From a virus: DNA of 23,692 nucleotides. The notes below the pieces were generated by a model. It saw only the letters and a list, made by a program, of their open reading frames with translations, had not been told where the DNA came from and searched no databases. This document shows positions 5,546 through 23,692 of this stretch, in pieces. Position 1 is the first letter of the stretch. Each line of letters starts with the position of its first letter. Location of the stretch: positions 1 to 23,692 of the IMG/VR virus record IMGVR_UViG_3300032242_001027. One strand, 5' to 3'. The translations under genes and the position numbers were made by a program.

Positions 5546-5557
5546 TTGATCACCCAT

Positions 5558-5588
5558 TTAACCAATAAACCTCGAGGAAATACCATGG
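5558..5588 (+). repeat. Translation-leader-like direct repeat, copy 2 (upstream of 5585 gene)
   Basis: TTAACCAATAA at 5558-5568 followed by TCGAGGAAATACCATGG at 5572-5588. It contains the GAGGAAA ribosome binding site and ATG 5585 of the lysine-rich gene. See copy 1 at 5051-5090. The spacer between blocks is only 3 bases here, against 11 in copy 1. Confidence 0.6.
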
Positions 5589-6364
5589 ACGGCTTTAAAT
5601 CTAACCCCAAAATGCAATGCTTTAAAGAAGGCGGCTCAGTAAAGTATGAGACCCGCAAGCAACACAAAGAAGAAGTGTCTTCTGACATTGCCCAAGATAA
5701 AAAGATTATCAAAAAAGCATTTAAAATCCATGATGAGCAAGAGCATAAAGGTGAACACACAAACCTTTCTAAATTGCGCAAAGGTGGCCGTGCTAAAAAA
5801 GATTGCGGCACAGTTAAAAAATACAAAGCCGGTGGTTCTGTAACCAACGTTTACGAAGCCAAAAAATCTTCTGGTGATTTGGATAATATTCAAAAAACTA
5901 AAGACATCAAACCAGGTAAAGCAGCTGCCCCATCTAAGGCTGCGATTAAGCCGTCGTTTGTCGGTTCTGATGTAGCTAAAGAAAAAAGCAAGCCATCTGG
6001 ACACAAAGACCCGTACATCAAGAGCAAGCAATCAAACAAAGCTGCAGCAGCCCCATCTGGTGCTAAAGGCCCGGATAAGTATTGTGGTGGCAGGTCTGTA
6101 CGCAAAATGGCTGTTGGTGGTTCAACCGGCGCGGAACAAGCTGCCCTTCTTAATGCTCTTCCAGGTAAAGTAAATGAAATTGAGCGTCAGCGTATGGCTG
6201 CCCGTGCCCGTAATGCTATGAATTACTTAGGGCCAGCACAGCAGTCTCAGTTTGTAAACCAAGGTGGTATGAATCCAACACCAGCACCAACTAACGTTGG
6301 AGCACCCGCTGGATCAACCATTCCCGCACAAAAACGCGGCGGTAAAGTCAAAAAGGCTTGCTAA
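5585..6364 (+). CDS. Lysine-rich GG-motif protein, probable virion component (259 aa)
   Basis: I chose ATG 5585 (GAGGAAA ribosome binding site). A TTG at 5546 in the same frame would run through the leader repeat and overlap the promoter-like motif. The protein is strongly basic, rich in Lys, Ala, Gly and Ser, low in hydrophobics, and looks largely disordered. A short motif recurs about seven times: E/K/A-x-GG-x-V/A-K. Examples are CFKEGGSVK (16-17), RKGGRAKK (67-68), YKAGGSVTN (83-84), CGGRSVRK (168-169), AVGGST (178-179) and [10 protein letters not shown] at the C-terminus. Three repeats lie next to Cys residues (Cys12, Cys167, Cys259). The same GG motif occurs in four ejection-type proteins downstream. 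A DNA-condensing or virion-internal role is plausible from charge and neighbours, but no known domain is recognised. Confidence 0.8.
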
Positions 6365-20302: not shown

Positions 20303-21937
20303 ATGCCAAAGGTCCCAAGCATCGCTGAAGTCAAAGCGTTCCTAGATCGCGCTAAGGCGTATAAGGAGCAGTTCACCGGTGGCTTTTACCACGGCAGCCC
20401 ATCGCCTAACATCAATGCGTTTGATCCTAGTAAATCAGCAAAGGATCCAATGTATACAACGCCGCAAGCTACCTTTGTTACTAGAGATCCCGAATTTGCT
20501 GAGTCATTTTTGTCAATGAACAACAGTGGTAAAATTAAATCCGGTTCTACAATGTACCCGGTGAGTGTTAACTTAGGTAAACACTGGCACCCAGAAACAC
20601 CTGAGGGTCAACAACTTATTTCTGAGTTTATTGAAAAATATCCAAAGCGTGTTAATCTTGCAAAAAATTTAAAAAAGGGTGATTGGACCGCGGTAGAAAA
20701 TGCTGATTTTATCCGTCACCTACAAGATACAGGCCACGACACTTTTCATGTAATGGAGGGTGGTGTCCCTAACGTTGGCGTGTTTGAGCCGCAAAACATC
20801 CGTGGCAAGTTTGCTGACTTTAATCCAGACGAGGCGATGAACCCAGACTTTATGAAGGCCGAGGGTGGCCTGATTCACATGGCCCCTGGTGGTAAAGTTC
20901 CTGAGGCTGTTGTTAAGGCATACAAATTATTTAGGACCAAACCAAACGAGCCAGGGACGCTCTATCCGTTGTTTGTTAATGCTAATAAGCCTGTACCCCT
21001 AAACGAATGGGTTAGTGCCGAGGTGGGCCCTGTAGCGGCCTCTGGTAAGGTAAAATCAAAGCTAGGTGAGTTAGCCTATCGTCCGGGTTGGCACGCAGGT
21101 GATTTACCAATTGCGACACACATCGGCGGCAAATCTGATCCTACTCTAAAAGCACCAGACTATCGTCGTCCTGATGAGGTATGGGCTGAGGTAGAAATGC
21201 CTAACGATGTTGACTGGCAGACTATTGCCAACCAACGCGCCGAGCTAAATAAAGCTGGTAAAATAATCCCACGTACTGCCCATATCACTGATCAAATTCC
21301 TGAAGGTGGTCACTACCGTTACAAAACCAGTCCTAATATGCAAGGTAACTGGCTTATTGGTGGTGATATGAAAGTCAATAAAATTTTGACTGACGAGGAA
21401 GTACAGGCAATTAACGAGGCAGCTGGTATGGCAGACCTACCGCGTTTTACACCTTTGCCTGGGAAAGCAGCTGGTGGTGAAATTGTTAAAAAAGCCTTAG
21501 AGTTTGCTAAGTCTATTCCATTTGTACACTTTTCTAAAGCTGAGAATATCTCACGCTTAGAGCCTGCTATGTATGGTACTGGCATTAAGGGCGCTGAGGG
21601 TGTACGCCTACAAGACGCGCCGGATATTAAACCACGTTCATATTTTTATACTGATAGACCGGATGTTCGCCCAGAGCAGGGCCTAGGAAGTGTTAAGTAC
21701 AGCGGCGTATCACAGGCAAGCTATCCTTTGCATGAGGATCCCGCTGGATACTATAAAATAGCTAAAGAGTTAGCCAAGGACCCATACTTTGCTAAGCAGG
21801 GTGTTGAGATTATTGATCAACCTAAAATGCTTAACGAAGTAGAGCGTGCAATTAAAAATGCAGGCTACACAGGATACCACACTGATGATGCGGGTATCCT
21901 GTTTCACCCAACTGACGTTACTAAAGCTACAGACTAA
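20303..21937 (+). CDS. Multi-domain polyvalent protein with ADP-ribosyltransferase-like modules (544 aa)
   Basis: Three modules are separated by GG-motif linkers. Module 1 (about 27-180) has the ART-type pattern YHGSPSPNINAFDPS (His30), TFVTRDPEFAESF (Phe58-Thr60), YPVSVNLGKHW and GVFEPQNIRGKF (Glu162), as in polyvalent-protein ARTs. Module 2 (about 203-380) has LYPLFVNANKPVPLNEWV, AYRPGWHAGDLPIATHIGG, VWAEVEMPNDVDWQ and YRYKTSPNMQGNWLIGGDMK. It is a family often found in polyvalent proteins of phages and conjugative elements, activity unknown to me. Module 3 (about 405-544) has PFVHFSKAENISRLEP, MYGTGIKGAEGVRL, RSYFYTD, and AIKNAGYTGYHTD, another ART-like family. Linkers are AEGGLIHMAPGGKV (187-199) and KAAGGEIVKKAL (388-399). 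It is the last gene of the ejection cluster, one base after its neighbour, so delivery into the host with the DNA is inferred. Confidence 0.8.
   Translation: MPKVPSIAEVKAFLDRAKAYKEQFTGGFYHGSPSPNINAFDPSKSAKDPMYTTPQATFVTRDPEFAESFLSMNNSGKIKSGSTMYPVSVNLGKHWHPETPEGQQLISEFIEKYPKRVNLAKNLKKGDWTAVENADFIRHLQDTGHDTFHVMEGGVPNVGVFEPQNIRGKFADFNPDEAMNPDFMKAEGGLIHMAPGGKVPEAVVKAYKLFRTKPNEPGTLYPLFVNANKPVPLNEWVSAEVGPVAASGKVKSKLGELAYRPGWHAGDLPIATHIGGKSDPTLKAPDYRRPDEVWAEVEMPNDVDWQTIANQRAELNKAGKIIPRTAHITDQIPEGGHYRYKTSPNMQGNWLIGGDMKVNKILTDEEVQAINEAAGMADLPRFTPLPGKAAGGEIVKKALEFAKSIPFVHFSKAENISRLEPAMYGTGIKGAEGVRLQDAPDIKPRSYFYTDRPDVRPEQGLGSVKYSGVSQASYPLHEDPAGYYKIAKELAKDPYFAKQGVEIIDQPKMLNEVERAIKNAGYTGYHTDDAGILFHPTDVTKATD
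21869..21902. repeat. Perfect 10-base inverted repeat near the convergent gene junction
   Basis: ACAGGATACC (21869-21878) and GGTATCCTGT (21893-21902) are exact reverse complements with a 14-base loop. They lie within the last 25 codons of the 544-aa gene. Only three T residues follow on the plus strand, so it is not a classical intrinsic terminator. It could still slow polymerase or protect a transcript end, because the converging genes leave no other space. Confidence 0.5.
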
Positions 21938-23692
21938 TTACTTTCTGTAACGCTTGCCAAACCATCCCTCCGCAGCAAGAGGAAAATCGGGCGCCCACGC
22001 TGGTGGTGTAGTCATAATTTTAACTACATCGGCTAATGCGGACTCCCCGTTTTGTTCTTCAACTAGGAGTAGTACCTCATCATGGATGCTGTTGATCACC
22101 TCGTAACCGGCCTTCTCAAGGTTAAGCATAGCCACGGCAAGACAATCTCTAGCGGTACCCTGTACAGCGGATTGAAAAATAGAACTACCAATCAAAGCGT
22201 TCCTACTCCACTGCCTAGTGTAAGTGTTCTGGCTGTGGACAGTGACGCCAGTCTTTTGACTCCCCCAGGGTGTGGTGAGCAGCTCGAGCTGTGGCCGCTG
22301 CCAGCAAATGAGTCGTCCGCTGGGTAACTGCATCCACAATGCATTCTTGGCAACCTTCAAAACCAATCTATCACCCGCACGAAACGGGTTACCGGGATTC
22401 TGTGTTGCAAGAATTGCAGCGGTCTCGCATTGAGCCCACAACTCTTTTACCCGCGAGTAAGACGTTCGGTAATTATCTACTGCATTTTTTGCCTGTCCTT
22501 CTGACAGCTTGACTCCCATTCCTTCAGCATACTTGACAAGACCCTTAGCTCCTTGCCCAAACATCGCACCGAGGACTGCAGACTTACTAACTTGTCTCTG
22601 ATCTTTTGTGACCTCATCGTAGGGTACACGGTAAAGGCTTTCTGAAGCAAACACTTTATATTCATCTAATCCCTTTCTAAATAGTTCTACTTTGTCTTTT
22701 TGCCCAGCCAAGTAGACGCCAACTCGGTTTTCAATTGAGCTAAAATCCACGTCAACGAAGGTCTTGCCGTTCGGAGCGACGATTGATGATCGTACCAAAG
22801 AGGATAGCTCCCCCATGCTACCTGTTCCTTCATTAAATACTCTCGGTATCGCCAATTCAATTTGCTCATCGCTGATCGTGGGGCGTGCAATATTTTGTAA
22901 ATTAAGACCCCCACGCGATGCCCAACGACCAGTACTAGCGCCATGATATACCAGTGTATTCCTAATCTTTCCATCTCGTTGTATCTCCATCATCTTAGCG
23001 TACTTAGCCACGCTAGTTTGGCTTCCTTGTTGGCGTAACTCCAGCGCTTTTTTTACGCGCGTAGGAATGCTGCACTGCAGCATTTTTGAGACGCTCTCGG
23101 CGGTCAGGTCATCCATATTGACACCTTGGGCGTTTACCCAAGCCAGTAACTTAGCCCTCTCAGAAGGCTTACAACCGGTCAAGGCAAGGCATTCGTTGTC
23201 AATGGCATCTTGGGCGCGGCAGACTGCCCATACGGCATTGTGCAGCTCGTCATAATCGACCGGTACGCCTCTTAAATTGATCCGCTGGGTAAGGGTCCAG
23301 ACTTCCTGTTCGACGTCGCTAAGGGGCCTTAAAACGCTTCCTATGGCCATCTCTGTGCGTACGTCCTGTGCGCAATAGGCAAATAGCTCCTGCATTAACT
23401 CTGGATCCTCATTGAACTCACCCTTGGAATTGGGCTTAGAGAGCTTCATAATCAGGCGCTTACCTATAGCGTCTTTTTTGTGCTCAGAGTCCATAAAGGT
23501 ACCAGCGTCATCAAGGCTCTGGGGGATGTTGTTGGCCGCGGCGATGGCCATGGTGTCAATGCACTGCTCCAGCTTTAATGGCGGCCAGCCGTACTTAGGC
23601 ACACAGACACAGTTCCAGATGGCGTACTCAAACATGGCGTTCCATGCTTGGATCTTGCCACCGTTGAGAACCCAATCCAATAACGGATTAAG
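21938..23692 (-). CDS. Family A DNA polymerase with 3'-5' exonuclease domain (partial, N-terminus outside window)
   Basis: The minus-strand frame is open to the right edge. The apparent first residue at 23680 is an internal TTG (Leu), preceded by L-N-P-L, so this is not the start. Counting that TTG as residue 1, exonuclease motifs II (AWNAMFEYAIWN) and III (YCAQD, Tyr102/Asp106) are present; motif I must lie beyond the edge. The polymerase domain has TGRWASRGGLNLQNIARP, motif A VDFSSIENRV (Asp312, Glu317), motif B RQVSKSAVLGAMFG (Arg362, Lys366) and motif C HDE (533-535). All catalytic carboxylates are in place. Motif B aligns without gaps to E. coli Pol I and has Leu370 at the Phe762 position and Phe374 at the Tyr766 position. 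Phage replication is the expected role. Confidence 0.93.
   Translation of the reverse strand, partial: LNPLLDWVLNGGKIQAWNAMFEYAIWNCVCVPKYGWPPLKLEQCIDTMAIAAANNIPQSLDDAGTFMDSEHKKDAIGKRLIMKLSKPNSKGEFNEDPELMQELFAYCAQDVRTEMAIGSVLRPLSDVEQEVWTLTQRINLRGVPVDYDELHNAVWAVCRAQDAIDNECLALTGCKPSERAKLLAWVNAQGVNMDDLTAESVSKMLQCSIPTRVKKALELRQQGSQTSVAKYAKMMEIQRDGKIRNTLVYHGASTGRWASRGGLNLQNIARPTISDEQIELAIPRVFNEGTGSMGELSSLVRSSIVAPNGKTFVDVDFSSIENRVGVYLAGQKDKVELFRKGLDEYKVFASESLYRVPYDEVTKDQRQVSKSAVLGAMFGQGAKGLVKYAEGMGVKLSEGQAKNAVDNYRTSYSRVKELWAQCETAAILATQNPGNPFRAGDRLVLKVAKNALWMQLPSGRLICWQRPQLELLTTPWGSQKTGVTVHSQNTYTRQWSRNALIGSSIFQSAVQGTARDCLAVAMLNLEKAGYEVINSIHDEVLLLVEEQNGESALADVVKIMTTPPAWAPDFPLAAEGWFGKRYRK

Follow-up and report, generated by a model that had tools for sequence, protein, structure and literature searches.

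The window, by which we mean the whole stretch of DNA analysed here (a 23,692-base IMG/VR virus record), has the gene layout of a podovirus-like tail/ejection region, and the last gene of this region encodes a modular protein that we refer to as the cargo protein (Table 1). The cargo gene is one intact frame lying opposite a stop-rich antisense strand; it begins 1 nt past the TAA of ej766, the 766-aa gene upstream of it, and its stop codon abuts that of the convergent polA. Upstream of it are virion structural proteins that match phrog_2941 and phrog_3287, and the individual "ejection protein" labels, including that of ej766, were assigned from position and composition, without a family hit. 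When a promoter belonging to the cargo gene itself was sought, promoter- and terminator-like matches were no commoner than in shuffled sequences, and the PADLOC models of known defence systems gave no match. The upstream protein ej766 is also modular, with an Ala/Gly-rich N-terminal part followed, after a GG linker, by a C-terminal part (about residues 403-764) that may be another effector. Beside the lysis genes (5546-6364), the window also encodes a 272-aa Lys/Gly-rich protein that carries several GG motifs and has no family match.

Table 1. The cargo gene, its modules and linkers, and the neighbouring genes (coordinates in the window)
Feature	Coordinates	Strand	Basis or remark
Two cluster proteins: 959 aa (DUF4214, GG linkers) and 363 aa	12099..16072	+	Upstream of the slot, conserved
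Transglycosylase (SLT) cluster protein, 636 aa	16091..18001	+	PF01464, 2.1e-9
Upstream cluster protein ej766, 766 aa	18001..20301	+	GG linkers at residues 269-285 and 400, as in the cargo protein
Modular cargo (polyvalent-type) gene, 544 aa	20303..21937	+	ORF from ATG to TAA, translation; final gene of the virion/ejection cluster
Module 1 (residues 24-171), predicted ART fold	20372..20815	+	PF18760 and structural matches; conserved H30, F58, E152
Linker 1 (residues 174-196), NPDEAMNPDFMKAEGGLIHMAPG	20822..20890	+	Mostly disordered; pLDDT < 50 at 184-196
Module 2 (residues 203-382), unnamed family	20909..21448	+	phrog_30118, 1.3e-63
Linker 2 (residues 384-396), includes KAAGGEIV	21452..21490	+	Disordered, pLDDT < 50; GG motif
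Module 3 (residues 402-544), putative diverged ART-like domain	21506..21934	+	hhalign with module 1; conservation
Convergent DNA polymerase gene (polA), partial; fixed downstream border of the slot	21938..23692	-	phrog_17, 6.9e-89

An AlphaFold2 model of the whole protein, built on a 66-row alignment (mean pLDDT 82.6), comprises three folded blocks separated by two disordered linkers in which pLDDT drops below 50 (residues 184-196 and 384-396). The blocks and the gaps between them show that the division into three modules (27-180, 203-380 and 405-544) split by GG linkers, as given in a first-pass annotation of this DNA, is right to within a few residues. The division is further corroborated by the occurrence of the modules apart from each other: related phage loci provided 172 distinct full-length ORFs in which modules 1, 2 and 3 (M1, M2 and M3) occur alone and combined, in arrangements that include M2, M3, M1-M3, M1-M2, M2-M1, M1-M2-M1 and others. 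In one relative (L010), M1 is 54% and M3 94% identical to the corresponding module of the window, and such unequal identity within a single relative shows that the modules are shuffled. Each module is under purifying selection, with dN/dS values of 0.04-0.10 over the comparisons in which synonymous sites are unsaturated.

The linkers themselves share a motif, A.GG.[IVLMF], with 417 occurrences in 171 modular ORFs versus 31 in shuffles, and the same motif is present in the 766-aa and 959-aa cluster proteins of the window. Codons for the same residue are identical at a frequency of 0.61 in the linker versus 0.475 inside M1, a modest effect that would suit a recombination seam, and the GG motif may represent such a seam or a processing site. 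The segment PDFMKAEGG of linker 1 (20843-20869) is nearly identical in L071-L077, in which the module preceding it is ~25% identical.

Sequence profile and structural model, taken together, indicate that M1 is an ADP-ribosyltransferase (ART) fold, in line with its reading as ART-like in the first-pass annotation. The Pfam model ART-PolyVal (PF18760) matches residues 28-166 of the window protein (1.5e-5; 26.2 bits, below the curated cut-off of 31.2) and 10 of the 34 members of the M1 family (best 9.1e-21); relatives scoring 37-43 bits pass the cut-off, and in the alignment those that pass have F and E at the same positions as the window protein. Structural alignment of residues 17-171 retrieved AcrIF11 (Z 8.5 over 125 residues), MbcT (7.5), the A4 pre-ejectosome chain (7.4) and many PARPs (~7), and nearly all of the structural matches of M1 are ART folds. 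A Z of 7-8.5 would by itself be middling, and Foldseek, with PARP13 among its matches, gave none at E <= 0.001 for M1, so that the ART assignment rests on sequence and structure in combination.

The residues conserved in M1 are H30 (31/34 rows), F58 (25/34, Y in one) and E152 (89%). H30 is located in a predicted strand (residues 25-32 of the AlphaFold2 model), corresponding to the H in strand 1 of Tox-ART-HYD2, and the Y that this family has in strand 2 is replaced by F58. E152, a candidate for the acid that Tox-ART-HYD2 has in or near strand 5, ends strand 147-152, ahead of strand 155-160, and was assigned to the pocket by alignment. The T4 Alt-type R-S-E signature (Arg in strand 1, Ser in strand 2) is absent from M1, with H30 and F58 in its place. 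The motif reading offered previously had to be revised in part: the second pocket position is F and not Y, and "VFEP" was rejected as the catalytic motif of M1, E162 being variable (D, E, K, N or S). As published polyvalent ARTs are described as H-Y-D (PMC5512222), M1 is an H-F-E variant and a diverged subfamily.

M3 is supported as a diverged relative of M1, and hence as ART-like, by comparison of the two profiles: hhalign aligned M1 with M3 over 119 columns (P = 5e-5) with a score of 35.0, whereas none of 29 control families exceeded 21.7. The order of strands and helices of M3 in the whole-protein model is also similar to that of M1. Across 27 rows of M3, H409, R445, Y449 and R515 are invariant and Y447 is present in 26/27, R445 and R515 being away from the terminal acid region, and no acid in the last strands is invariant. 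The earlier designation of M3 as ART-like is supported by its profile similarity to M1, and M3 may be inactive, of altered chemistry, or a binder. A match of the Pfam model GerD to M3 was regarded as a chance match; members of the M2 and M3 families gave only chance-level Pfam matches, and there is no Pfam model for either.

M2 belongs to the unnamed family phrog_30118 and has no convincing Pfam match, which agrees with its previous description as an uncharacterised family. Relatives of M2 were found in 341 IMG/VR viral stretches in one scan, six relatives sit in MAG contigs, and R260, H264, H273, R288, W294, D302, W305, T342 and W350 are invariant across 63 rows. Folded alone with AF2, M2 gave a pLDDT of 91.2 and a pTM of 0.86, and Foldseek against the PDB yielded nothing below E = 0.3 for it. 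Structural re-alignment of ~600 candidates produced rows with Z >= 2 that are nearly all ART folds, all of them weak (best Z 4.6) and including RES toxin, Arr, cholix, ExoA and diphtheria toxin. The M2 profile showed no similarity to that of M1 or M3, and sequence searches of solved structures with the profiles of all three modules and with the whole protein returned nothing meaningful. Structure prediction, which had been put forward as the check for ART folds in each module, matched M1 to ART folds and gave weak ART matches (Z <= 4.6) for M2 folded alone; M2 probably represents an enzyme or a ligand binder whose fold is distantly similar to that of ARTs.

In a Foldseek search of predicted viral structures (BFVD), the matches ranked after the relatives of M2 include several rIIB-like and DUF7666 models with a probability of 0.6-0.9; the T4 rIIB C-terminal domain and DUF7666 have a predicted fold similar to that of M2. 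The hhalign scores of M2 against rIIB/DUF7666 (14.8-18.4) lie inside the range of 29 unrelated control families (up to 22), even when M2 was widened to 63 rows. Sequence homology between M2 and rIIB was therefore set aside as unsupported and retained as a lead only, and M2 was filed neither as rIIB-like nor as ART. By eye, the T4 rIIB C-terminus (L229:1466-2404), AWKVVRS...GLHVCSKSYIRHFG...RVVKVKVHPRDVV, can be placed beside AYKLFRT...GWHAGDLPIATHIG...EVWAEVEMPNDVD of M2 with a collinear G(W/L/F)H motif, without profile significance. None of the titles and abstracts listed links rIIB or DUF7666 to ART, and DUF7666 is not named in any of these papers; rIIB is not mentioned in PMC9503650. We consider it doubtful that M2, the T4 rIIB C-terminal domain and DUF7666 are strongly diverged ART-like domains belonging to a single superfamily. 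If they were, what the classic rII exclusion gene does at the molecular level could be tested as NAD- or ADP-ribose-related chemistry, and the cargo protein would hold three ART-fold modules.

The cargo gene occupies a fixed slot with exchanged contents in a podovirus-like ejection cluster, and the claim that it ends the virion/ejection cluster extends to its relatives. In related phages, the place between the ejection cluster and a convergent polA is taken by M1-, M2- or M3-bearing proteins, of which 28 are distinct; some of these are near relatives, so the 28 are not a tally of independent events. In 22 of the 28 the start is at most 70 nt from where the upstream cluster gene ends (within 5 nt in most of those 22), and in 25 the stop codon is back to back with that of polA, as in the window. 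The slot contents comprise seven architectures of 295-1299 aa, and the borders are constant. Parts of the neighbouring cluster protein are moreover fused to the modules in some relatives: the N-terminal part of ej766 to M1 (L067) and its C-terminal part (71% identical) to M2 (L172 and L173), with the order of the ej766 part and M2 reversed in L299.

On balance, we favor the view that the cargo gene encodes a compact polyvalent protein that is made late, goes into the particle together with the ejection proteins and enters the cell along with the DNA, and whose M1 modifies the host. On this view, the idea of the first-pass annotation is right with respect to M1 and plausible with respect to delivery, which would probably serve to disarm or reprogram the bacterium. 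From what was computed (gene, modules, M1 fold, relation of M3 to M1, shuffling, slot, fusions and selection), we infer late expression, packaging, injection, catalysis and a target. The modules would be independent effectors held on disordered GG linkers and swapped between phages by recombination; that M1, M2 and M3 shuffle independently argues for independent and not for joint action. Synthesis would occur late, together with that of the virion proteins, and the product would be packaged alongside the ejection proteins and then be threaded into the cell with the DNA. Such a particle-borne cargo has indirect support from the slot context, the ej766 fusions, the shared GG linkers, the precedent of gp27 of phage A-4L and the position of the M2-bearing gp38 of phage CRP-212 (see below). 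Once inside, M1 would most likely use NAD+ to ADP-ribosylate a host protein, for which a transcription, translation or defence complex would be a candidate, M3 might perform a similar but altered chemistry or bind substrate, and M2, which is under strong constraint, would act as a module apart.

Polyvalent proteins with ART-PolyVal domains are known (Iyer et al. 2017, PMC5512222; Pfam PF18760), and ARTs are the commonest protein-modifying domains in them (PMC5512222). Like these proteins, the cargo protein combines at least two separable domains in one polypeptide that are recombined in other phages, has an ART module, is phage-encoded in a late/virion gene context, and is predicted to be packaged and injected. 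By contrast, it is compact (544 aa, three modules), its M1 is of the H-F-E type, M2 and M3 are without Pfam models, and its gene lies in a fixed slot bordered by polA. The polyvalent kind is already known, and the compact form, the fixed cargo slot and the M2 family are new.

The closest precedent for delivery is PDB chain 9k3a_B, the full 1717 residues of gp27 of Anabaena phage A-4L, which is a chain of a cyanopodophage pre-ejectosome and whose ART (YHGT from residue 1423) accounts for the alignment with M1. Both are ART folds in podovirus ejection-cluster proteins, that of gp27 having been resolved in the pre-ejectosome; however, gp27 holds one ART inside a long ejection protein, whereas the cargo protein is encoded by a separate last gene, and the M1 and M3 HMMs had no match in phage A-4L. 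The ART of gp27 (L227 20116-25269, minus strand) is missed by Pfam, and the record annotates the product as a tail protein. The best structural match of M1, AcrIF11 (PDB 6kyf), is an anti-CRISPR ADP-ribosyltransferase whose activity is abolished by mutation of the H/Y pair or of acidic residues (PMC12421852). Unlike M1, AcrIF11 is a single-domain protein that is expressed in the cell and targets Csy1/Cas8f, and no sequence similarity between the two was detected. T4 Alt is an ART that the phage carries in its head and injects along with its DNA (PMC5512222), but it is a single enzyme of the R-S-E clade, and strand 1 of M1 has H and not R.

The delivered modules could instead be mainly non-catalytic, that is, ART folds that bind NAD/ADP-ribose or proteins and serve as decoys, sponges or inhibitors of defence complexes. 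Examples of ART folds that are diverged or inactive exist, PARP13 among them, and both the lack of an invariant acid in the last strands of M3 and the F in place of Y in M1 would be in keeping with such a role. We nevertheless judge it unlikely, because H30 and E152 are among the most conserved residues of M1 and because the M1 relatives that pass the PF18760 cut-off keep the same F and E.

It also seems improbable that the protein acts late in the cytoplasm as a non-virion effector after replication, for example in superinfection exclusion or lysis timing, with the late operon serving only for timing. The last position in the operon would need no packaging, and the structural likeness of M2 to rIIB would fit an exclusion role, but this scenario is at odds with the fusion proteins that join M1 or M2 to parts of ej766, with the GG linkers common to the cluster proteins and with the A4 pre-ejectosome precedent. 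Finally, a role of the modules as components of the ejection machine that help to build the conduit instead of acting on the host would suit the position in the ejection cluster, the fusions to the neighbour and the A4 ART resolved within the assembled pre-ejectosome, but is very improbable considering the near-invariance of the M1 pocket residues and the free variation in architecture and length between close relatives, which is unexpected for a load-bearing part.

The fixed slot of the cargo gene, with its stable borders, offers a small and clean system in which to test the idea of polyvalent proteins, and comparing the slot contents between close relatives could show the host processes that are attacked at entry. 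M2, with hundreds of IMG/VR stretches and dozens of nearly invariant residues, has no name; in the cultured roseophage CRP-212, it is borne by gp38, which is encoded between the portal and coat genes. Further recurrent modules without Pfam names are the HDYFGHG module of L010 and L011, which matches phrog_3170 (function unknown), the EEYLKGNISQEERIRIMNQYLP module of L043 and the C-terminal HWGSV module of L068. Among the giant M2-bearing proteins, that of L016:3143-8200 adds a GDSL lipase and an ASCH domain, and a weak GP88-like match is found in both L016 and L005:1860-6479.
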